From Actinoplanes sichuanensis (lineage in GTDB: Bacteria; Actinomycetota; Actinomycetes; Mycobacteriales; Micromonosporaceae), in the NCBI RefSeq assembly GCF_033097365.1, contig NZ_AP028461.1, positions 1,798,001 through 1,862,000 of the forward strand: 64,000 nt of DNA, written 5' to 3'. The stretch's first letter is position 1. Every line of letters begins with the position of its first letter. The position numbers and the translations under genes were made by a program. This document shows positions 9,281 through 21,351 of this stretch, piece by piece. The notes beneath the pieces were generated by a model that worked only from the letters and a program-made list of their open reading frames with translations, had not been told where the DNA came from and searched no databases.

Positions 9281-10168
9281 TCAGTCGTCCCGGTAGACGG
9301 GCTTGCCGTCGCCGGACGGGCGGCGCGGTGGGGGCGGCTCGGCGCGGTACCGGGGTTTGCCGTCGCCCTGGCGGGGCTGCTGCGGCGGGCGACCGACGGA
9401 CTCGTTGCGGTATCGAGGTGCACCGTCACCCGGCCGGGGCTCCGGGCGCTCCTTCCGGTATTCCGGTTGCCCGTCGCGGGACCGGTATTCCGGTTGCCCG
9501 TCGCGGGACCGGTTCTGGGCCCTCCCGTCGCGGGAGCGATTTTCGGTCCGGGCGTCGCGGGACCGGTATTCAGGCCGGCCGTCGCGGGAGCGATACCCGG
9601 CTCGGCCGTCGCGGCGGCCGGCGGAAGTCGAGCGGCGCGGCGACGGCGAGCGTCGAGGGGAGTCGGTGCGGCGGGAGCGGTGACGCTGGTCGCCGGTGGA
9701 TGAGCGGGACCGGGATGCCGGTCGGGTGGTCGGTGCCGGGCGTTCCCGCAGCGGCGCCGGAAACGCCCGGTTCAGCAGCGGAATCAGCATCAGCAGGACC
9801 AGGATCGCACCCCACCCGGTGAGGATCGGCACGAAGCTGAGCAACTCGACCGGGACCACGTAGTGCTCCAGCGTCCACGTTGTCACGACGAAGGCGGCCA
9901 GGAGCAGCGTGACCGTGCGGACGGTGACGGTCAGGGGGAGTCTGCCCCGGTTGCGGGCGGTCCAGAGGGCGATCAACCCGGCGAGCGGCAGGGCCAGACA
10001 GGCGAACAGCAGCCAGTGGTCGGATTTCGCCAGCTCGGCGGGATGGTGCCGGGAGACGTACAGCGCCGTGGCCGGCATCGCCAGCGTCGACCCGACCACC
10101 GGTGACAGGCAGAGACCGACCAACGACAGGCAGCCGGCCACGCCTGGGGATGCAGCTTTCACGGGCAC
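9281..10168 (-). CDS. four-TM membrane protein with long arginine-rich repeat tail
   Basis: About 295 residues. The first half holds roughly four hydrophobic segments. The second half is a highly basic, low-complexity tail of repeated nine-residue units (R/Y-R-S-R-D-G-x-P-E) followed by looser GDGxPRYR units ending PVYRDD. The open frame continues upstream to 10561 but that part is antisense to the NYN-FHA gene and non-membrane in character, so I start at GTG 10168 (GTG 10162 is equally possible). It diverges from the five-gene phospho-signalling cluster. The basic tail could bind nucleic acid, acidic polymer or phospholipid heads, but this is speculation; no known family is recognised. Confidence 0.65.
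   Translation of the reverse strand: MPVKAASPGVAGCLSLVGLCLSPVVGSTLAMPATALYVSRHHPAELAKSDHWLLFACLALPLAGLIALWTARNRGRLPLTVTVRTVTLLLAAFVVTTWTLEHYVVPVELLSFVPILTGWGAILVLLMLIPLLNRAFPAPLRERPAPTTRPASRSRSSTGDQRHRSRRTDSPRRSPSPRRSTSAGRRDGRAGYRSRDGRPEYRSRDARTENRSRDGRAQNRSRDGQPEYRSRDGQPEYRKERPEPRPGDGAPRYRNESVGRPPQQPRQGDGKPRYRAEPPPPRRPSGDGKPVYRDD
9455..9616. repeat. 27-bp in-frame tandem repeat (six units)
   Basis: Six consecutive 27-bp units at 9455, 9482, 9509, 9536, 9563 and 9590, each containing GTCGCGG near its 3' end. The first two are identical; the others diverge. On the minus strand each unit encodes nine residues of the Arg/Asp-rich tail of the membrane protein. Confidence 0.9.
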
Positions 10169-10244
10169 GACAGCGGAGCCTAATGATGCCGGTTCGGTGA
10201 ATGGAAATGTATGACCCGTGCGGATGAATGATTGCTGCGAATGA

Positions 10245-11441
10245 GTGACCGCGCCCGACGCCCGTTCTGAACTACTGTTCTGCGACGTGGCCGAGGAAGG
10301 TGTGGCAGAGAAGACCGAAGAGACGGTGCGACCGGCGATCCGTGGGCGCGTGGTGATCGACGCATCCAATGTGTGCCGGATGCGGGACCTGCCGGTGCAG
10401 GGCCGTTCCGGGGGCCGCCCGTCGGCCTCCAGGCTGCGCCGGGTGGTCGCCGAGTGGCGCCGCCAGCACGGCCGGTCAGCCGATCTCACCTTCGTCGCCG
10501 ACCGCAGTCTGCGCCACCGTTTCGACGATTGTCGGGCGTCCGACGAATGGGATTCCCTCATTCGTGAATTCGATTTCAGAATCGAGTCGTACGCCGATCC
10601 GGAGATTCTCGATCGGGCCGCCGCCGAACAGCGCTTCGTGCTGAGTGGCGATCTGTTCCGCGGTCATCGGCGCAGCGCCCGCTGGATCGAGCGGTACCCG
10701 GACCGGTTCCTGATACCGAAGCTGACCGGCGACGCGATGCGGTTCGTGCCGTCCGGGGTGAAGCCCGAGGCCGACCACGTCAAGACCTACAGCGAGGAGA
10801 CCGACTACCTGCGCGGGTTCGGCTTCTCCGCGGACCGCCACGACCACCGGCTGGAGTGGTTCAAGTTCCGCTGGCAGTGCCACGAGCCGGCCTGCTGGAC
10901 GGCCCGCAACCCGGACTGGGAACGGCAGATGATCCCGGTCCCGGGTCGTGACGGCCGCCCGAGGTGCTGGGAGTGCGGCGGCCCGCTGAAGGATCGACAG
11001 CCCCGCGACGCCTGGGCCGAGATCAAGGTCACCGACCTGGATCGTACCGTCGTCTGGCACCGCTTCCTGGTCGAGGCCGGCGACCCGGTGGTGGTCGGCC
11101 GGGGCCTGAGCGCCAACGGCATCAGCCTCGACCTGCTGGCCGACGTGCTCGGCGACACCGAGCTGCCGCGCGCGGTGAGCCGCCAGCACGTGCTGCTCAG
11201 CGTGGACGAGCACGGTGAGCTGACCGCCACCGACCTGGGATGGAAGCGCCGGACGACAGTGCACGACAGCACCCGGCAGTCGCACACCCTCGACCCGGAC
11301 GAGTCCCGCATCGTCCGCGACAAGGGCTGGATCGTGCTGGCCGGCGCGCTGTGCCTGGTCCGCTCGGCCCGCCGGTATGTGCCGACTGCCCGGGGCGCCC
11401 TGGGCCCGTCCGCCGACGACCGGACCACCCGGAACGCCTGA
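10245..11441 (+). CDS. NYN-type nuclease / zinc ribbon / FHA domain protein
   Basis: 398 residues, three modules. Residues about 34-165 look like a NYN (PIN-fold) RNase: VVIDASN with D39, FVADRS with D86 and VLSGDLFRGH with D136 supply the expected acidic residues. Residues about 210-250 carry two cysteine pairs (C212/C217, C241/C244), a zinc-ribbon-like knuckle. Residues about 275-345 read as an FHA phosphothreonine-binding domain: VVVGRG (R286) then VSRQH (S312, R313, H315). First gene of a run whose later members overlap by 4 bp and end in a Ser/Thr kinase, so the FHA domain plausibly reads that kinase's marks. Start GTG 10245 is uncertain; GTGs at 10287 and 10302 are alternatives. Domain calls are by eye; the function is inferred. 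Confidence 0.8.
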   Translation: MTAPDARSELLFCDVAEEGVAEKTEETVRPAIRGRVVIDASNVCRMRDLPVQGRSGGRPSASRLRRVVAEWRRQHGRSADLTFVADRSLRHRFDDCRASDEWDSLIREFDFRIESYADPEILDRAAAEQRFVLSGDLFRGHRRSARWIERYPDRFLIPKLTGDAMRFVPSGVKPEADHVKTYSEETDYLRGFGFSADRHDHRLEWFKFRWQCHEPACWTARNPDWERQMIPVPGRDGRPRCWECGGPLKDRQPRDAWAEIKVTDLDRTVVWHRFLVEAGDPVVVGRGLSANGISLDLLADVLGDTELPRAVSRQHVLLSVDEHGELTATDLGWKRRTTVHDSTRQSHTLDPDESRIVRDKGWIVLAGALCLVRSARRYVPTARGALGPSADDRTTRNA

Positions 11442-11505
11442 GCGGGAGGGGAGCGGGACATGCCGGACCACCCGGAACGCGTGAGCGGGGAGAGCGAGAC
11501 ATGTT
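11420..11505. repeat. imperfect 43-bp tandem duplication at a gene junction
   Basis: The segment spanning the NYN-FHA stop codon and the next start is present twice, 43 bp apart (from 11420 and from 11463); both copies share CCGGACCACCCGGAACGC and a GAGCG(G/A)GACATG end. The first copy makes a second ATG (11460) opening a 15-codon frame whose TGA overlaps the true ATG at 11501. Confidence 0.75.
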
Positions 11506-12571
11506 GAACGGTGTGATCCTGGTCGGTGCCCTGCGTCAGCGGGTGGAGAAGGCGATCGGCTGGCACGGCCCGGCACCCACCGGGAAGGCCCGGGGTCCGG
11601 TCGGGATGACCACGACCGCGGGCCTCTCGGTGCTGCGCCCGCCGATGACCTGGTTGGGCAGCCCCGCCGCCCGCCAGGACTGGGTGCGGGCGATGGCCGC
11701 CACCCTGACCGCGGCCCCGGGTAGGCCGCTGCCGCCCGGTGTGAACGGCATCGCCTCGGCCGTGGACCGGCATGTGCTGGAGGTGGGTTCGGCCGCCGAG
11801 CAGACCGTGCTGTGCAATCTGATCCGCCGACACTCACCGGTGCTGATCGCTCTGACCGGCCGGTCCGGTACCGGTACGCGACGGCTGGGCGCGGCGCGTG
11901 ACCAGGTCGCCGCCCGGCACCTGGACGCCGCCGACCCCGAGTTCCGCACCCTGTTGGAGGCGCACCTGCGCCGGGTCGAGGGCTTCGAGGCGATCGACCG
12001 TACCGACGTCCATCCGTCCACCGAACCGGACGGCACACCCACCGTGACCGTCCAGTGTGTCGATGCCGCCGCCACCCTGGCCGCGGTCCGCGCGCACGCC
12101 CTGCTGCTGGCCGCGTTCGCGCTGCGTGCCCGGCGGCTGGTCCAGGAGGGCGTCGCGGTGGAGACGGTGCCGCAGCGTGTCGTCGACGAGAACCGGGCCC
12201 GTGCCGTCGCCAGCGGTCTGCGGGCCCGACCGACCGACGACGTCGGGTCCACGCTGCGCCACCGTACCCGCGGGCTGCTCGCCGACGTGCTGGCCATCGA
12301 GCTGGACAATCTGGACACCCAGCCGGAGGAGCTGTTTCCGATCCTGGCTCCGATCGAGCGCCTGGCCGACGACGACAGTGTCCTGACCGGCAACCCGGAC
12401 ACGATCAGCCGCGCACTCACCGACACGACGGCCGGCGGCCCCTGCCTCGCCGCCGCGCGCCGCGCGGCCGAGGGCCGCACCTGGTTGCTGGTGGAGAGGT
12501 GGGCGGGCGTCATCGCGGCCCGCGGCGGAGGCGTCGAACCATCGAGGGGTACGGCCGGAGCGCGCCGATGA
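11501..12571 (+). CDS. GCS2-like (glutamate-cysteine ligase family 2 / carboxylate-amine ligase) relative
   Basis: 356 residues. The middle resembles the GCS2 fold: a helix and strand ending in HSPVLIALTGRSG (family form: SPVLLALTANSP), a strand pattern TVTVQCVDAAATL (family form: TLEVRVCDA...T), then a helix with ENRARAVASGL (family form: ENRW.AAR.GL). Family members join an amino acid or amine to a carboxylate using ATP. Several residues expected in the ATP/metal site are not obvious, so this may be divergent or inactive. ATG 11501 has GGGGAGAG upstream; the stop overlaps the next ATG (ATGA). The family call is inference from pattern similarity and needs profile testing. Confidence 0.6.
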   Translation: MLNGVILVGALRQRVEKAIGWHGPAPTGKARGPVGMTTTAGLSVLRPPMTWLGSPAARQDWVRAMAATLTAAPGRPLPPGVNGIASAVDRHVLEVGSAAEQTVLCNLIRRHSPVLIALTGRSGTGTRRLGAARDQVAARHLDAADPEFRTLLEAHLRRVEGFEAIDRTDVHPSTEPDGTPTVTVQCVDAAATLAAVRAHALLLAAFALRARRLVQEGVAVETVPQRVVDENRARAVASGLRARPTDDVGSTLRHRTRGLLADVLAIELDNLDTQPEELFPILAPIERLADDDSVLTGNPDTISRALTDTTAGGPCLAAARRAAEGRTWLLVERWAGVIAARGGGVEPSRGTAGARR

Positions 12572-13866
12572 CAGCCGTGGACGTGATCCTCGACCTGCGG
12601 TCCTGGCCGGACCGAGTCCGTGACCCGGCTGGTCTGACCGCCCTCTGGGACCAGGTGGAACGAGCCCTGAACGGCACCGATCTGCGCCGCCGCCCGATCA
12701 GCCGGGTGACCCTGCCCCGCGGTGTGGTGGCCGTGCACCTGGCCCGGGCCGAGTCGGCCGCCGTGATCCGTCCGGACACCGCCGTCCGGGTGGTGAACGT
12801 CCTGGAGAGACCACATCTGCAGCACCCGTGCCGGGCCTGCACCGCTCCCGGGGCGCAGAGCGAGGGAGTCTTCCGCTGCCCGGGCTGTGACAGCGCCGGC
12901 TGGCTGTGCGCGGGCCACGCCCAGGTGCTCGACGGCGCCCTGATCGGCACCTGCCGGAAACACCGCCCGGCCTGTGTCGAGTGCGGCAAGGCGGCCACCT
13001 ACCGCTGCGCCGGCCCCGGCTGCCGGGGTCAGTCCACACACTGTGACCAGCACCGACGCAACCCGGCCGGGGGTTCCGGGTGGGGGTACTGCCCGGGCTG
13101 CCACGGCACGCTGTTCCCGGACTGCGCGATGACCGAGTGCGGCAACGTCGGCTCGGCGGGCTGCGAGTTCACCGACGACCGGCTGCGCGGCTGCGGCCGG
13201 CGGCTGTGTCCTGAGCATCTGCGCCGCTGGCAGGTGTTCGGCCCGGAACGTCTCGGCCTGGCCCTGTGCGCCCGCCACGAGACGGCTCTCGGCGGTGTCC
13301 CGGCGGCCGAGCTGGTCCGGCGGATCGTCGGCGGCACCTACGCCCGGCACCAGGGCGACCGCAACGCCGACCCGCTGCCGAGCCTGCGGGCGGTCGGTTA
13401 CACACTGCGTAACTTCAAGCACTTCACCCAGGCCAACGACCCGCACTGGATCCGTAAGACCCTGCAGACCTCGGGTGACGCCTTCGGGCCGGGCGCCGAG
13501 AAGGTACGCCAGTTCGTGCGACAGCGCGACGAGAAGGGTCTGCCGCGGCCGTGGAAGCGCGAGATCGAGGAACTCGACAGTGTCCGCGGCAGCGGCGAGA
13601 AGCTGCTCGACCAGGCCCGGGCGGTGCTGCGGGCCCAGGGCGGCCGGGACGGCGCCCGACTGGCCGGGGAGCTGAGCCTCGGCGGGTACATCGCGCCCCG
13701 CCGGATCGGCGGCGAGGACCGGCCCGGCCAGTTGTACCTGCTCGTGCCCCGCCACCGGCGGGACCTGTTCCGGAAATGGCAGTCCGCGATGAGCCGAGAC
13801 CTCACGCAACGTAAAGGCAGCGAGATCCTGGTCCTGCCGGACCGGGGGAGCGGGGGCGTCCGGTGA
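12568..13866 (+). CDS. zinc-finger array protein (B-box/treble-clef-like)
   Basis: 432 residues. Residues about 88-237 hold many Cys/His pairs: C88-x2-C91, C104-x2-C107, C114-x2-H117, C129-x2-H132, then C136-x2-C139, C147, C152, C159-x2-H162, then C175-x2-C178, C186, C191, C199, C209, C214-x2-H217 and C234-x2-H237. The repeating CxxC...CxxH rhythm resembles tandem B-box or treble-clef modules. The N-terminal 80 residues (LDLRSWPDRV, VVAVHLARAESAAVI) and the helical C-terminal 190 residues are unassigned. It overlaps its neighbours by 4 bp on both sides. Likely a binding adaptor of the cluster; no enzyme motif seen. Confidence 0.8.
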   Translation: MTAVDVILDLRSWPDRVRDPAGLTALWDQVERALNGTDLRRRPISRVTLPRGVVAVHLARAESAAVIRPDTAVRVVNVLERPHLQHPCRACTAPGAQSEGVFRCPGCDSAGWLCAGHAQVLDGALIGTCRKHRPACVECGKAATYRCAGPGCRGQSTHCDQHRRNPAGGSGWGYCPGCHGTLFPDCAMTECGNVGSAGCEFTDDRLRGCGRRLCPEHLRRWQVFGPERLGLALCARHETALGGVPAAELVRRIVGGTYARHQGDRNADPLPSLRAVGYTLRNFKHFTQANDPHWIRKTLQTSGDAFGPGAEKVRQFVRQRDEKGLPRPWKREIEELDSVRGSGEKLLDQARAVLRAQGGRDGARLAGELSLGGYIAPRRIGGEDRPGQLYLLVPRHRRDLFRKWQSAMSRDLTQRKGSEILVLPDRGSGGVR

Positions 13867-15653
13867 AGGTCGACTCCACCACCCATCGCACGGTCGCCGT
13901 GCCGTCGATCGCCGCCGGTGTGTCCGTACAACTGGCGGTGTCTCGGAAAGGACCGCAAGGGCCGGCCCTGCTGGAGGTCGACGACGGCGGGCGACGGACC
14001 GCGGTCGCCGTCGACGTGCACCGTCATGACGGTGTCCCGGACGGGGCGCTCGTGGTGCCCCAGGAACTGCACGACGAACTCGGTCTGGACGGCGGCCGGT
14101 GGACGCTGCGGGAACGGCCCGCGGTGCAGGCGCGCGGTCTGGTGCTGGAACCGGCCACGGTGCGCGCGCCGGACCGGATGACCCGGGAGATCGCCACCGG
14201 TGGGCTGGCCGGCGCGCTGCTCACGCCCGCTCCCGGGGGCTGGGAGCCGCTGGTGGTCGGCGGGTCGACGTACGAGATCAAGGAGGTCCGGGGCGCGGGC
14301 CGGGACTCGATCGTCCGGATCGGCCCGGAGACCACCGTGGAGATCTTCGCGCCGGGCGCTCGCGCCGGCGTCGACATGGTGATCCTCGCCGACGTCAGCG
14401 AATCGATGGACGTCGCCGACGTGCCGAAACCGTCCGGCGGGTACGTCAAACGCATCGACGTGCTGAAACGGTCGTTGCGGGCGCTGCTCACGGTGCGGGC
14501 CGCGGCGCTCGGCCCGGCGTCGCAGGTGGCACTGCTCGCGTTCGACTCGAAGGCGCGGACCCGGTTCCCGACCGCCGGTGGGATGGCCACCCTGGACTCG
14601 GCGTCACCGAAGGCGGTCACCGAGAGTTTCCGCAAGGCCGTCGACCAGCTCGCGCCGCGGCCCGGCAGCCACACCGACATCCAGCGCGCCCTGCACGCCG
14701 CCGCCGAGTTGCTCAACCGGCACGGACGGCCCGCCAACGAACGGGTCATCGTGCTGGTCAGTGACGGTGCCGACTGTCCGCCGCGGCGCCCCGAGGACAC
14801 CGGCCGGGTGTTCGGGGCGCTGGACGAGCCGGTCAGCCTGATGGAGCACCTGCACCGGGACATGAAGGTGCGGCTGCACGCCGTCGGAATCAGCACCGAG
14901 GAGTGGTTCCACAAGCGCTGCGAACCCAACGCCCGCCTCGTCCCCGACCATCGCCTGCTGCAGAAGCTGCTGCTCGCGGCCGGTGGCGGACGGCCCACCA
15001 TCGGCGGGGTCGACGACGTCGGCGACTACTTCTCCGAGGTCGGCACCGGCCTGCGCTACCCGGTGACCGGCCGGCTGACCGCACTGCCGGCGTTGCGCCT
15101 GGACCGGAAGATGCTGCAGAAGCTGACCGTCCGCCGGGCGGCCGGGCCGGACCGCGACAAGCTCGCCGACGAGTTCGCCGGGCTGGTCCGGTCGGTCAAC
15201 GAGCGCAGCCAGCAAGCGCTCGGCGGGGCCTTGTTCCAGCGTGGGGTGCTGCCGCAGGTCGAGTATCTGCTGCTGCGGGATGTGCCGGCCGACATCGCGG
15301 AGTTCACCAGGCAGCTCAGCAGCCACCTGCGGCGCCTCGGCCCCTTGCCGCCGGGGGCTTCGGACGCCGCGTGTGTACGCGAGTGGACCGCTCTGATGAA
15401 GCGGCTCAACCAGGCGCTCGTCGCCGAACGCGACCTCAGCGAGGTGTCCCGGGTCTGCCAGTGCCCGTCCCGGGAGATCCCGGACGTCGCCGTCGCCGTG
15501 CTCGGCACGCTGTGCCGGCAGCTGCGGGCCGTCGACGACGGGCTGCGGAGACTGCCGACCCGCTCGGCCGGGGCGCCGACCACCCGCCGTCCCGTCACCG
15601 GCGGTGCCGTCCGCGCGCTGGAACGCACCGGCACCCTCTCGTTCCGGTCATGA
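13863..15653 (+). CDS. vWA-domain protein with CDC48-N-like N-terminal region
   Basis: 596 residues. Residues about 170-390 are a von Willebrand A domain with a full metal-binding MIDAS: D177-x-S179-x-S181, T271 (GSHTD) and D301 (LVSDG). Residues about 55-160 look like the two-part CDC48/VAT N domain: a double-psi-barrel-like GALVVPQELHDELGLDGG stretch and a VRIGPETTVEIF ending. Residues 390-596 are helical with a cysteine pair near CQCPS. In conflict and stress systems vWA proteins act as metal-dependent scaffolds; CDC48-N domains usually bind partner proteins. GTG 13863 overlaps the previous stop (GTGA) and its stop overlaps the kinase ATG. The vWA call is secure, the N-domain call is inference. 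Confidence 0.85.
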   Translation: MKVDSTTHRTVAVPSIAAGVSVQLAVSRKGPQGPALLEVDDGGRRTAVAVDVHRHDGVPDGALVVPQELHDELGLDGGRWTLRERPAVQARGLVLEPATVRAPDRMTREIATGGLAGALLTPAPGGWEPLVVGGSTYEIKEVRGAGRDSIVRIGPETTVEIFAPGARAGVDMVILADVSESMDVADVPKPSGGYVKRIDVLKRSLRALLTVRAAALGPASQVALLAFDSKARTRFPTAGGMATLDSASPKAVTESFRKAVDQLAPRPGSHTDIQRALHAAAELLNRHGRPANERVIVLVSDGADCPPRRPEDTGRVFGALDEPVSLMEHLHRDMKVRLHAVGISTEEWFHKRCEPNARLVPDHRLLQKLLLAAGGGRPTIGGVDDVGDYFSEVGTGLRYPVTGRLTALPALRLDRKMLQKLTVRRAAGPDRDKLADEFAGLVRSVNERSQQALGGALFQRGVLPQVEYLLLRDVPADIAEFTRQLSSHLRRLGPLPPGASDAACVREWTALMKRLNQALVAERDLSEVSRVCQCPSREIPDVAVAVLGTLCRQLRAVDDGLRRLPTRSAGAPTTRRPVTGGAVRALERTGTLSFRS

Positions 15654-17443
15654 GCGGCGCCCTGTGGGTCGACGGGCCACTCGGCCGCCGGGAGTTCCGG
15701 CTGGTCCGGCGCGTTCGCAGCGGCGGTGAGGGTGAGGTCTGGCAGGCCGAGCGCACCGACAACGACGTCACCGCCCGATGGGCGGTCAAGATCCTGCTGC
15801 CGGAACGCATCGCACCCGACCGCAACCCCCGCCGCGTGCTCAACGAGTGGATGCGCCGCTGGCAGCAGACCATGATGCGGGTCGGTGCCCTGAACCTGCC
15901 CGGTGTGGTCTTCCCGGCCGGTGTGTTCACCGGGCCGCGTCCCTACACCGGCGGCGGGCCGGACGACTCGGCCGGCCGCGCGCTCTACATGGTCAGCCGC
16001 TGGGTCGACGGCGGTCAGGACCTCGACCGCTGGCGCACCGGACATTTCGAGGTGGCCGCCTGTCGAGGGCTCCTCGACCAGATCTGCACGCTCGTGGAGA
16101 GCCTCGGCGACGAGGGCATGGTCCACGGCGACCTGACACCGGGCAACATCATGGTCGAACACGGTGAGGTACGTTTGATCGACTTCACCCGACTCACCCA
16201 CACCGACGCCACCCCGGTCCTGCCCGGCGGCACCCGCGGGTACATGGCGCCCGAGCTCAGCCGTCCCGGTGTCCGTGTCGACCCGGCCATCGACCGGTAC
16301 GCGGTCGGCACGGTCGCGTACTTCCTGCTCGCCGGGGTCGACCCGGCACATCAGGACGCGGCCCGCACGGTGCGCCGGCAGCTGCCCCGGTACGGGTATC
16401 CGCAAGCCCTGGCCGACCACGTGGCGGCCCTGCTGGATCCGCGGCCGGAGCAGCGTCCCCGGCTCAGCGCGTGGGCCCGCGACCTGGGGCGGCTCATCGG
16501 TGGCGCGTACCACTCCGACGGTTTCGAAGAACTGGCCCTGACCGTCGACGCCACCGGGACCACGCAGATCGCCGCGGCCGGTGGCCGCCGCATCGCGGTG
16601 GCCCAGGCCGGAAGCCGTCACCAGCCGCTGCTCGACCACCTGCCGCTTCCGGCACCCCAGGGGGTACGGGCGATCGCGCTCGCCCGCCGAGGCAACGGCG
16701 ATGTGGCGGTCTTCGCCCGAGGTAACGACCGAAGTGTCACGGTACGTGTCGACGGCACCTGGCGAGTCCTACCCGGGGTGACCGCACACGGGCCGCTGCG
16801 GGCCGCGACCAGGGCCGACGGCGGGGTGAGCGCCTACCTCGCCGGTGCTACCGGCCTGACCGTGCTCACCGTGGGCCTCGACGGGGAGCCGACGGTCGAG
16901 CACCTGACCGAGAGTGCCCGCCGGGTCCTGGCGGTCGCGTCCGGCCCGGCCGGTGACGTCCACCTCGCCGTGGAGGACCACACCGGACAGGTACGGTGCG
17001 GCCCGGTCGGGGGCCTGCGCCCGGCCGGTCTGGCCGACGTCGACACGGCCGCCCTGTGCGTGAACAACCACGACGAGCCGGTCCTCATCGCCGCCCAGGT
17101 CGGAGCGGCCGAACTCACCGAGATCACCGACCCGGCATCCGCCGACCGGGCCGGCCGGCGCCCGCTCCCGGGCCGTCCCGGCATTCGTGACGTGTCGTGC
17201 CTGTGCCTGCGTACCGGTCTGCTGCTGGCGGTGGCCGCCGACAGCGGCCTGTGGGTCCGCCCCGAGCGGGGCGACTGGACCTGCCTCTGGCCGGAGCCGG
17301 TCCAGCAGGTGGCCGCGGTCCAGGGTTACGGCTGGCGGGTCCAGTTGGTCGCGCTGGCCGAGGGCCGGGTCCTGTTCGCCGAGGAGGACGCCCCGGACCG
17401 CTGGCCCCCGAGAGCCCATTTCCTGAAGTCCCCCGGCGACTGA
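15650..17443 (+). CDS. Ser/Thr protein kinase with C-terminal beta-propeller-like domain
   Basis: 597 residues. Kinase domain about 15-300: glycine loop SGGEGEV (25-30), lysine K47 (AVKIL), catalytic loop HGDLTPGN (D161, N166; HGD replaces HRD), metal motif DFT (D178; DFG lost its glycine), then GTRGYMAPE and DRYAVG. Key catalytic residues are present, so activity is likely. Residues about 310-597 form repeated short strands (for example RIAVAQAG, DVAVFARGND, LAVASGPAGDVHLAV) like a beta-propeller. No membrane segment, so soluble, unlike PknB-type sensors. It is the last of the five coupled genes and converges on the next gene 3 bp away. Probable partner of the FHA protein at 10245 (inference). 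Confidence 0.9.
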   Translation: MSGALWVDGPLGRREFRLVRRVRSGGEGEVWQAERTDNDVTARWAVKILLPERIAPDRNPRRVLNEWMRRWQQTMMRVGALNLPGVVFPAGVFTGPRPYTGGGPDDSAGRALYMVSRWVDGGQDLDRWRTGHFEVAACRGLLDQICTLVESLGDEGMVHGDLTPGNIMVEHGEVRLIDFTRLTHTDATPVLPGGTRGYMAPELSRPGVRVDPAIDRYAVGTVAYFLLAGVDPAHQDAARTVRRQLPRYGYPQALADHVAALLDPRPEQRPRLSAWARDLGRLIGGAYHSDGFEELALTVDATGTTQIAAAGGRRIAVAQAGSRHQPLLDHLPLPAPQGVRAIALARRGNGDVAVFARGNDRSVTVRVDGTWRVLPGVTAHGPLRAATRADGGVSAYLAGATGLTVLTVGLDGEPTVEHLTESARRVLAVASGPAGDVHLAVEDHTGQVRCGPVGGLRPAGLADVDTAALCVNNHDEPVLIAAQVGAAELTEITDPASADRAGRRPLPGRPGIRDVSCLCLRTGLLLAVAADSGLWVRPERGDWTCLWPEPVQQVAAVQGYGWRVQLVALAEGRVLFAEEDAPDRWPPRAHFLKSPGD

Positions 17444-20808: not shown

Positions 20809-21351
20809 TCACCTGGGCGGCCCCGGAGGCGTGAGCGCGATCCGGTGGTGGCCGCCCGGCACCTCGACGAGCTGAGCCGATTCGGTCACGGCGAGGATCG
20901 GGAGCGGGAAGGCCGACATGACGTCGAGGACTGCCGCCCGATCGGTGACCCCGGTGGCGAGCGTGCAGTGCGGCAGGAGACGGTCGGGCCGATAGTAGGG
21001 CCGGATGTCCTCGGCGATGGGCTCGACGGCTTCGTGGACCCGCCGGTGCAGGGTCAGGAACCGCTGCGAGGGGATGGCGCCGAGGAAGGCCACCGACTCG
21101 TCGGTGAGGAAGAAGCCGAGGCTAGCCAGCGGCAGCGGGAGCCCGGTGGCGGTGGCGAGGACCGGCCGCAGGGCGTCGGCGATCCGCGCGGGGTCGTCGT
21201 GTTCGAGGACGGACAGGCTCACGTGCGGGTGGTAGTCGGCGCCGGGGCGGCTGCCGAGCGAGGGGACACCGTGCTCGTCGAGGGCCGTCCAGATCTGCCT
21301 GACCCGCCGGTCGGACTGCTCGTCCAGGAAGAGCTCGATCGCATGGGGCAC
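20809..21351 (-). CDS. 2H phosphoesterase / 2'-5' RNA ligase-like protein
   Basis: 180 residues with the two HxS/T motifs that define 2H phosphoesterases: HVS (H43, S45 in HPHVSLSV) and HCT (H128, T130 in LPHCTLA), 85 residues apart. Members open cyclic 2',3' or 1'',2'' phosphates or 2'-5' linkages in RNA-derived molecules. ATG 21351. Stands alone; the minus-strand metallopeptidase upstream of it ends in its own hairpin. Substrate unknown. Confidence 0.85.
   Translation of the reverse strand: MPHAIELFLDEQSDRRVRQIWTALDEHGVPSLGSRPGADYHPHVSLSVLEHDDPARIADALRPVLATATGLPLPLASLGFFLTDESVAFLGAIPSQRFLTLHRRVHEAVEPIAEDIRPYYRPDRLLPHCTLATGVTDRAAVLDVMSAFPLPILAVTESAQLVEVPGGHHRIALTPPGPPR

Follow-up and report, generated by a model that had tools for sequence, protein, structure and literature searches.

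A rare operon of a soil actinomycete, formed by five plus-strand open reading frames in the analyzed stretch of 64,000 nucleotides (the window), has in our judgement an even chance of being an undescribed MoxR-less vWA conflict or stress module, in which a conserved three-gene core is combined with exchangeable outputs, here an FHA-bearing RNase licensed by a kinase. Five plus-strand genes, the last four joined by 4-bp ATGA/GTGA overlaps, had been described in the earlier note, and both the coordinates and the overlap letters agree (Table 1); genes 1 and 2 are spaced by 59 bp. All five genes are under purifying selection (dN/dS 0.18–0.35 against two relatives), weakest on the putative RNase (gene 1), and recur in the same order, with 33–44% identity, in locus L005; hence, they are not chance frames.

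Table 1. Features of the five-gene cassette (window coordinates).
Feature	Position	Strand
Gene 1: NYN RNase–zinc ribbon–FHA protein, 398 aa	10245..11441	+
NYN domain of gene 1	about 10347–10751	+
Four-Cys zinc ribbon of gene 1	about 10878–10976	+
FHA domain of gene 1	about 11088–11282	+
Gene 2: GCS2-ligase-like core protein, 356 aa	11501..12571	+
Gene 2/3 overlap, 4 bp, ATGA	12568..12571	+
Gene 3: zinc-array core protein ZnA, 432 aa	12568..13866	+
Cys/His array of ZnA	about 12829–13278	+
C-terminal KH-derived stretch of ZnA, GxxG lost in the window copy	about 13720–13866	+
Gene 3/4 overlap, 4 bp, GTGA	13863..13866	+
Gene 4: vWA core protein, 596 aa, with N-terminal extension and C-terminal region	13863..15653	+
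vWA domain of gene 4, intact MIDAS	about 14373–14891	+
Gene 4/5 overlap, 4 bp, ATGA	15650..15653	+
Gene 5: Ser/Thr kinase with propeller-like tail	15650..17443	+
Ser/Thr kinase domain of gene 5	about 15710–16372	+
Propeller-like tail of gene 5	about 16550–17440	+

Related loci were retrieved with two baits, ZnA (for most loci) and the GCS2-like protein; duplicates were dropped (L041, same as L021; L042, same as L020; L091, same as L016), L007, a decayed remnant whose ZnA and vWA frames are truncated, was tallied separately, and genes in L007, L009, L011, L014, and L016 were located by tblastn. Genes 2–4 (GCS2-like, ZnA, vWA) stand side by side in 21 of 21 non-redundant loci; since most of these were found with ZnA or the GCS2-like protein, the bait gene is present by construction, which does not hold for the other two core genes. 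The core is constant, and the flanking genes differ by clade: the NYN RNase–zinc ribbon–FHA protein with the kinase–propeller protein is found in 10 of the 21 loci, the window included; a kinase with a DUF7019 protein in six; EACC1 with a caspase in two; a two-transmembrane protein in two; and the core without a flanking partner in one. On a tree of 18 loci the partner changes three times, fewer than we would expect of a fast-shuffling defence system. The suggested co-occurrence of the set, in order, across actinomycetes is thus borne out by ordered relatives in several genomes and by the invariably present core; of the notion of five genes as one set, the recurring order stands, but the fixed unit is genes 2–4, while the NYN-FHA protein and the kinase are exchangeable.

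Relatives of the kinase are present in 16 of the 21 loci (one, L009, with a broken frame), and the NYN-FHA protein always accompanies a kinase (10/10 loci), being found in none of the five kinase-less loci. The six remaining kinase loci lack a NYN-FHA relative; their kinase must therefore have another target, and a kinase–FHA relay can apply to one clade only. The cassette is sporadic in the genus (5 of 60 genomes), occupying one place in three closely related Actinoplanes; a class-level search of 345 genomes yielded only the own genome, which is a lower bound.

Among the core proteins, gene 2 has no Pfam match up to E 1 and scores 24 bits (E 2e-5) against TIGR02050, the cut-off being 176. The gene 2 family aligns with GCS2 over 242 columns (hhalign probability 94.8, E 5e-8; one template alignment, made from the 7 of 25 fetched GCS2 loci that passed the motif filter), and the ENR-x-RA, DV-x-P, and R-C-x-D positions can be made out in this profile–profile alignment. 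Long-GCS2 relatives are present in Streptomyces and Pyrinomonadaceae. The N-terminal GVE-x-E segment of GCS2 enzymes has no aligned counterpart, and Val replaces Glu of the VE(L/M)R strand. A ligase role of gene 2 is therefore doubtful, and an intact ligase was rejected as the default reading; in GCS2 enzymes, the acidic residues of this segment and this strand have a metal role. The earlier label, GCS2-ligase-like, keeps its profile signal but lacks the acidic positions of genuine enzymes. A PF04107 search of the own genome matched seven genes, gene 2 not among them, and a sequence search of the PDB with the GCS2-like profile gave no useful match.

The window ZnA likewise has no Pfam match up to E 1. 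The KH RNA-binding domain (KH_1) is found in 13 of 23 ZnA proteins, the window copy not being one of them, and the PDB match of ZnA is the KH domain of Nova-1 (E 0.0017). In one genome search with the ZnA profile, eight of nine matching genomes match the KH end alone; these are likely RNase Y and were not counted as relatives. The proposed vWA protein with an intact MIDAS is confirmed for gene 4 by a VWA_2 match (Pfam, E 2.8e-12) and by the invariant residues D177, S179, S181, T271, and D301 in an alignment of 16 rows. Many rows end in an aromatic C-terminal motif, F-x-[YF]-R-[DE], which is degenerate in the window copy, ending in Ser instead of Asp or Glu. The vWA tail of the FHA-bearing loci shows no excess of Thr (p 0.71), and the seven PDB matches of the vWA profile include no ArnB or vWA2 entry.

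The partner proteins of the window also have the predicted architecture. Gene 1 matches RNase_Zc3h12a above the cut-off (Pfam, E 5e-6) and FHA slightly below it (19.6 bits against 20.7), and eight aligned rows share the NYN residues D39, D86, D118, and D136, the zinc ribbon C212, C217, C241, and C244, and the FHA residues G285-R286 and S312-R313-x-H315; the window FHA has lost the Asn-Gly pair. Gene 5 matches Pkinase (Pfam, E 7.9e-17), with K47, D161, N166, and D178 invariant in 13 rows. Pfam gave nothing useful for its tail; the propeller-like character rests on a repeat of about 43 residues (offsets 86–88, z 4.0–5.5; offset 44, z 3.1) and on a weak PDB match (E 0.033) to a lactonase, which we take to be a propeller.

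The nine nearest genes of the window copy are sugar-metabolism, APH-kinase, and sigma-factor genes, none of them defence genes, and a defence island around this copy was rejected on the basis of these nine. At least six of the 21 loci, on the other hand, carry components of known conflict systems or of TerY-P-like ones inside or next to the cassette; such counts are lower bounds, since neighbours were Pfam-scanned selectively. In L021, the core is immediately preceded by EACC1 and caspase-TPR genes, and EACC1–caspase lies beside it in L006 (by similarity, with an EACC1 match there too). Within the genus, EACC1 is uncommon, with 47 matches in 24 genomes (the sample in which the background rate was measured, for EACC1 and PP2C only); hence, its presence directly beside the core in both caspase loci, which represent one clade, is unlikely to be due to chance. 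It is absent from the window cassette, the own-genome EACC1 matches being elsewhere. A clean empty site was not found: six other genomes of the genus keep the upstream glycoside hydrolase and LacI genes, followed, in the 17 kb taken, by neither the cassette nor the downstream genes of the window. The ZnA searches found no ZnA in viral contigs, plasmids, or phages; carriage on these was therefore rejected, and the cassette shows no sign of mobility.

For the mechanism, we propose that a core complex with the zinc array (and, in many relatives, KH) would sense a nucleic-acid or protein cue, that the degenerate GCS2-like protein would bind a ligand or partner rather than form an amide, and that the vWA protein would serve as a scaffold. 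In the window clade, the kinase would license docking of the FHA-RNase, after archaeal ArnA–ArnB–ArnC: the FHA domain would dock, the zinc ribbon would provide another contact, and the NYN RNase would be recruited to its target RNA or activated there. The outputs joined to the same core in other clades would be a caspase with an EACC1 membrane component, a DUF7019 protein with a kinase, or a two-transmembrane protein. Both the relay and a possible role against phages are inferred. Counted in favour of a MoxR-less module with exchangeable outputs were the ordered co-occurrence, partner exchange by clade, two-bait retrieval of the core, invariant residues, KH_1 in ZnA relatives, linkage of NYN-FHA and kinase, sporadic spread, conflict-type neighbours, purifying selection, EACC1 adjacency, and the Arn and PIN-Zn/PIN-FHA precedents; counted against it were the six kinase loci without NYN-FHA, no Thr excess, no ArnB/vWA2 entry in the PDB, loss of the KH GxxG and the FHA Asn-Gly in the window, non-defence neighbours, no mobility sign, and few partner changes. 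More tentatively, the cassette could represent an undescribed actinobacterial class of abortive immunity, with a MoxR-less vWA scaffold, an RNA-sensing zinc-array/KH protein, a ligase-fold sensor, and interchangeable outputs, here a phosphothreonine-licensed RNase. If true, this would extend the vWA conflict systems known from multicellular bacteria by a new core, bring the phosphorylation-gated FHA–vWA docking of archaeal motility control, coupled to RNA cleavage, into bacterial immunity, and give a testable role to the degenerate GCS2 and zinc-array/KH proteins. The complete set is small enough to be transferred into a laboratory Streptomyces.

A physiological operon for phospho-signalling (in development or under nutrient or envelope stress), where RNA cleavage adjusts expression with no anti-invader role, is a somewhat unlikely reading: the nearest functional precedent, ArnAB–ArnC, regulates motility, and both the neighbours of the window copy and its single place in three close Actinoplanes fit, while the very patchy spread in the genus and the class, the exchange of outputs, EACC1–caspase included, and the conflict-type parts in or beside at least six loci do not. 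In GarA and OdhI, the unphosphorylated FHA inhibits a partner and a kinase releases it. That the FHA of gene 1 similarly restrains the RNase or a partner is rather improbable; an RNase needs an off state, and in the PDB the FHA part is most similar to TB39.8, OdhI, and GarA entries (E 0.028–0.062), but the similarity is weak, perhaps one that actinobacterial FHA domains share in general, and the conservation of the zinc ribbon points to ArnA-like docking.

Still less probable is an active carboxylate-amine ligase in gene 2 modifying a protein or peptide tail, e.g., the aromatic vWA C-terminus, with the modification as the signal: the GCS2 profile match, the three recognisable motifs, and the recurrent vWA C-terminal motif are set against the missing acidic positions, the absence of gene 2 among the PF04107 genes, and the terminal Ser of the window vWA. 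That the cassette branches off within the TerY-P (vWA-PP2C-kinase) stress triad family is very improbable. It would share a vWA and a kinase in one operon, and in L012, L014, and L043 a vWA/PP2C/kinase-like set is located close to the cassette; however, both sets stand there as separate gene runs, no PP2C is present inside any cassette, and BLASTP of the window vWA showed no significant similarity to the TerY-like vWA encoded close to the L043 cassette (best E 0.28, a single comparison). TerY-P membership as such was rejected, chiefly for want of a PP2C, and the difference from TerY-P pointed out earlier is upheld, with neither PP2C nor MoxR found in the cassettes and all cassette genes falling in the families given above.

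No named system found in PADLOC or in the literature searched matches the set, as the earlier note had supposed: PADLOC has no model for the core (GCS2-like, 0 of 16 rows; vWA, one of 16 rows, a weak ZorG hit with E 0.014; window ZnA without a match) or the window NYN-FHA protein, and no publication listed by the literature searches names the gene set. The PADLOC hits of the kinase, to PD-T4-6 (E 8e-20) and to 31 further models that include a kinase, are in our view generic. GCS2/YbdK-type ligases share the profile match with gene 2 but not its lack of acidic positions. EACC1–caspase, a two-gene system of Kaur et al. (2020; PMC7159879), is an added partner in one clade of the cassette and absent from the window.

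According to PMC7159879, MoxR–vWA (VMAP) ternary systems resemble the cassette in a vWA component, occurrence in multicellular actinobacteria, and variable outputs, among which are a PIN RNase fused to a Zn-binding domain, a PIN–FHA combination, and kinases related to propeller-fused ones. In contrast, their kinases mostly have disrupted catalytic residues, intact in the cassette; each output of the cassette has a gene of its own instead of being fused to the vWA; and a term search of that paper gave 0 occurrences of GCS2. In 19 of the 21 loci, no called gene inside the cassette has a P-loop motif, as expected of MoxR, and the contiguous cassette genes of L040 and L043 leave no room for MoxR either; VMAP membership was rejected for the cassettes scanned.

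According to PMC12852372 and PMC6509490, the zinc finger and FHA of ArnA bind ArnB (vWA), ArnC phosphorylates, phosphorylation tightens the FHA–vWA complex, and the system regulates motility (archaellum) in Sulfolobus. It is archaeal and, as described there, has no nuclease domain in ArnA and no GCS2-like or zinc-array/KH protein, unlike the cassette; no sequence relation beyond domain types was detected with the vWA profile against the PDB. The Arn-type combination of a zinc finger with an FHA reader having intact core residues is found in gene 1, although the window FHA is below the cut-off and lacks Asn-Gly, and ArnA–ArnB–ArnC and the cassette have in common a zinc-finger and FHA protein, a vWA protein with a C-terminal domain, and a Ser/Thr kinase.

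The GCS2-like protein, the zinc-array protein (ZnA), and the vWA protein are encoded side by side and in the same order in all 21 loci counted (the window, L005, L006, L009–L021, L040, L043, L088, L089, and L090); the bait gene is here present by construction, the other two core genes are not. Three duplicate loci and the decayed L007 are excluded from this count. The co-occurrence survey named in the earlier note bears out this trio as the fixed unit; the complete set, with the NYN-zinc ribbon-FHA protein (NYN-FHA) and the kinase, recurs in 10/21 loci. The genes flanking the core depend on the clade. Clade A (10 loci) has NYN-FHA upstream and the kinase–propeller protein downstream. Clade B (6 loci) lacks NYN-FHA and has a downstream kinase and a DUF7019 protein, Pfam-tested in L018 (E 2.9e-7) and assigned by similarity in the remaining loci; in L009 of this clade the kinase gene spans two frames, and other loci have intact copies. 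Clade C (L006 and L021) has upstream EACC1 and a caspase-TPR protein and no kinase, as identified by Pfam in L021 and by similarity in L006, where EACC1 is also found by an EACC1 search. Group D (2 loci), also without the kinase, has a protein of 401–407 aa whose C-terminal part contains two hydrophobic stretches and resembles CorA by eye, without a Pfam match; group E (L043) has the core alone, with another kinase-like gene in a neighboring run. In the concatenated-core tree of 18 loci (L088–L090 left out), B and C each form one side of a branch, and three changes are needed for all groups, hence, the outputs changed rarely. The preferred reading is a vWA-centered conflict or stress module without MoxR, with a conserved core and exchangeable outputs.

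The open reading frames of the window confirm the earlier claim of five plus-strand genes, the last four joined by successive 4-bp overlaps; the gap between genes 1 and 2 is 59 bp. Pfam supports NYN, vWA, and kinase, and places FHA about one bit below the cut-off; for genes 2 and 3, no family is found up to E 1. Comparisons among the window, L019 (Actinoplanes xinjiangensis), and L020 (A. philippinensis), the latter two being its closest relatives, yield dN/dS of 0.30–0.35 for NYN-FHA, 0.21–0.22 for the GCS2-like gene, 0.25–0.30 for ZnA, 0.18–0.24 for vWA, and 0.20–0.23 for the kinase, so each of the five is a gene on which purifying selection acts.

Coordinates of the cassette and of features observed in the window and in related loci
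Locus	Position	Strand	Feature	Remarks
Window	10245–17443	+	five-gene cassette	open reading frames
Window	9281–10561	−	long frame divergent from the NYN gene, overlapping its start	residues 104–253 membrane-protein-like, ~80% identical in L019; C-terminal part basic, repetitive; no match in Pfam search
Window	20809–21351	−	2'-5' RNA ligase superfamily gene (PF13563)	few kb downstream of the cassette
L005	14284–19414 and 3067–5694	−	GAP1-N2, DO-GTPase2-like, and CHAT genes	bracket the five-gene cassette of genome G021
L007	8766–10345	−	decayed remnant of ZnA and vWA
L009	13117–14939	+	two-frame kinase gene of an Amycolatopsis cassette	decay or sequencing error
L010	7355–8524	+	RtcB RNA ligase gene (PF01139, E 2.5e-121), Saccharothrix	directly upstream of the cassette
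L043	10269–18399	−	ThiF/E1, Prok-JAB, YukD-like ubiquitin fold, PP2C, TerY-like vWA; E2-looking protein without Pfam match; kinase-like gene with weak APH match only	single run convergent with the core operon

One flank of the window cassette holds a GH2/LacI pair and a GNAT gene, the opposite flank APH and sigma-factor genes. Two close relatives carry it at the same place, and six further genomes of the genus have different neighbors beside the GH2/LacI pair. Parts of described systems lie within or adjoining 6/21 loci: EACC1-caspase (L006, L021); CHAT, GAP1-N2, and sub-threshold DO-GTPase2 (L005); and vWA/PP2C/kinase-like sets (L012, L014, L043), with a ubiquitin-like protein, E1, and JAB in L043. 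EACC1 is scarce, with 47 matches across 24 genomes each about 10 Mb in size, so chance is an unlikely explanation for its adjoining the core in both caspase loci, although these two loci form a single clade. PP2C gives 154 matches in 24 genomes, about six per genome; at this rate about 0.3 would be expected across some 21 windows of 20 kb, and the three seen are an excess, the expectation applying the rate of this genus to all loci and the neighbors being scanned selectively. In L005, an additional small vWA gene immediately precedes the NYN gene. RtcB in L010 sets RNA repair beside a putative RNA-directed system.

All eight rows of the NYN-FHA alignment keep the four Asp, the four Cys of the ribbon, and, in FHA, G-R and S-R-x-H. 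The FHA N-G pair is kept in L005, L013, and L015, reads H-G in L016 and L017, and is missing from the window, L019, and L020. The catalytic-site Lys, Asp, Asn, and Asp are invariant in 13 kinase rows; the kinase tail repeats every ~43 residues, as expected of a propeller, with lactonase as a weak PDB match.

The GCS2-like protein of the window weakly matches TIGR02050 (YbdK/GCS2 family; E 2e-5), scoring 24 bits where the cut-off is 176, and is not among the seven genes listed by a PF04107 search of its own genome. The earlier label of a GCS2-ligase-like protein holds for the overall similarity: hhalign of 56 relatives (50 used) with seven genuine GCS2 proteins from related genomes gives probability 94.8 and E 5e-8 over 242 columns. 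It does not extend to the GVE-x-E segment, which has no counterpart in this alignment, or to the VE(L/M)R Glu, replaced by Val; we take these acidic residues to be metal ligands. The ZnA alignment of 23 rows has 23 invariant Cys/His positions, an array that by eye looks B-box-like. The ZnA C-terminus matches KH_1 in 13/23 members (best E 6e-5, matches counted up to E 1) and Nova-1 KH in PDB (E 0.0017); the GxxG loop is gone in ZnA of the window, P0006, P0007, and P0009. The vWA MIDAS is invariant in 16 rows. Many of these rows have F-x-[YF]-R-[DE] as their last residues, and the window copy has a degenerate version. This short aromatic motif follows a poorly conserved tail and is retained across clades with different partners, hence, it is perhaps a core contact.

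ZnA is found in 4/40 relatives, one being the decayed L007, and in 4/150 genomes of the family, own genome counted in both; in the class, the match is the own genome, i.e., at least 1/345, as at most five candidates per genome were scored. At the phylum level, 9/198 genomes match the ZnA profile, eight of them at the KH end only. The GCS2-like gene is present in 5/60 genomes of the genus, own genome counted, and a long relative in 4/246 genomes of what is almost certainly Streptomyces, one sharing the genes of L016. The genome-contig scan yields 13 named loci across Amycolatopsis, Saccharothrix, Nocardia, Lentzea, Actinomadura, Streptomyces, Goodfellowiella, Actinoplanes, and Pseudosporangium. 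No ZnA match is found in viral contigs, plasmids, or phages, and neither GCS2-like, kinase, nor NYN-FHA matches in 19.5 kb around L007 of its genome (G019).

The five-gene set is unnamed in titles and abstracts found by literature search, though Ter-system or amidoligase papers may mention it, and none of the PADLOC (2023) models covers the core. NYN-FHA is accompanied by the kinase in 10/10 cases and present in 0/5 kinase-less loci (hypergeometric 0.023, relatedness ignored); six loci have the kinase without NYN-FHA. In loci with FHA, the vWA tail shows no extra Thr (16 rows compared). Among the outputs of vWA systems, Kaur et al., 2020 (PMC7159879) report PIN RNases that carry a Zn-binding domain, PIN combined with FHA, and relatives of propeller-fused kinases in which the catalytic residues are mostly disrupted. 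Together with the co-occurrence and the Arn precedent, this makes a relay most likely for clade A, all steps of which we infer: the core would act as sensor, the kinase would license docking, FHA would dock, and NYN would cut. The worked precedent is ArnA–ArnB–ArnC (PMC12852372, PMC6509490), where the zinc finger of ArnA (zinc finger and FHA) binds ArnB (vWA), and phosphorylation of ArnB, ArnC being the kinase, exposes a C-terminal surface to which FHA binds.
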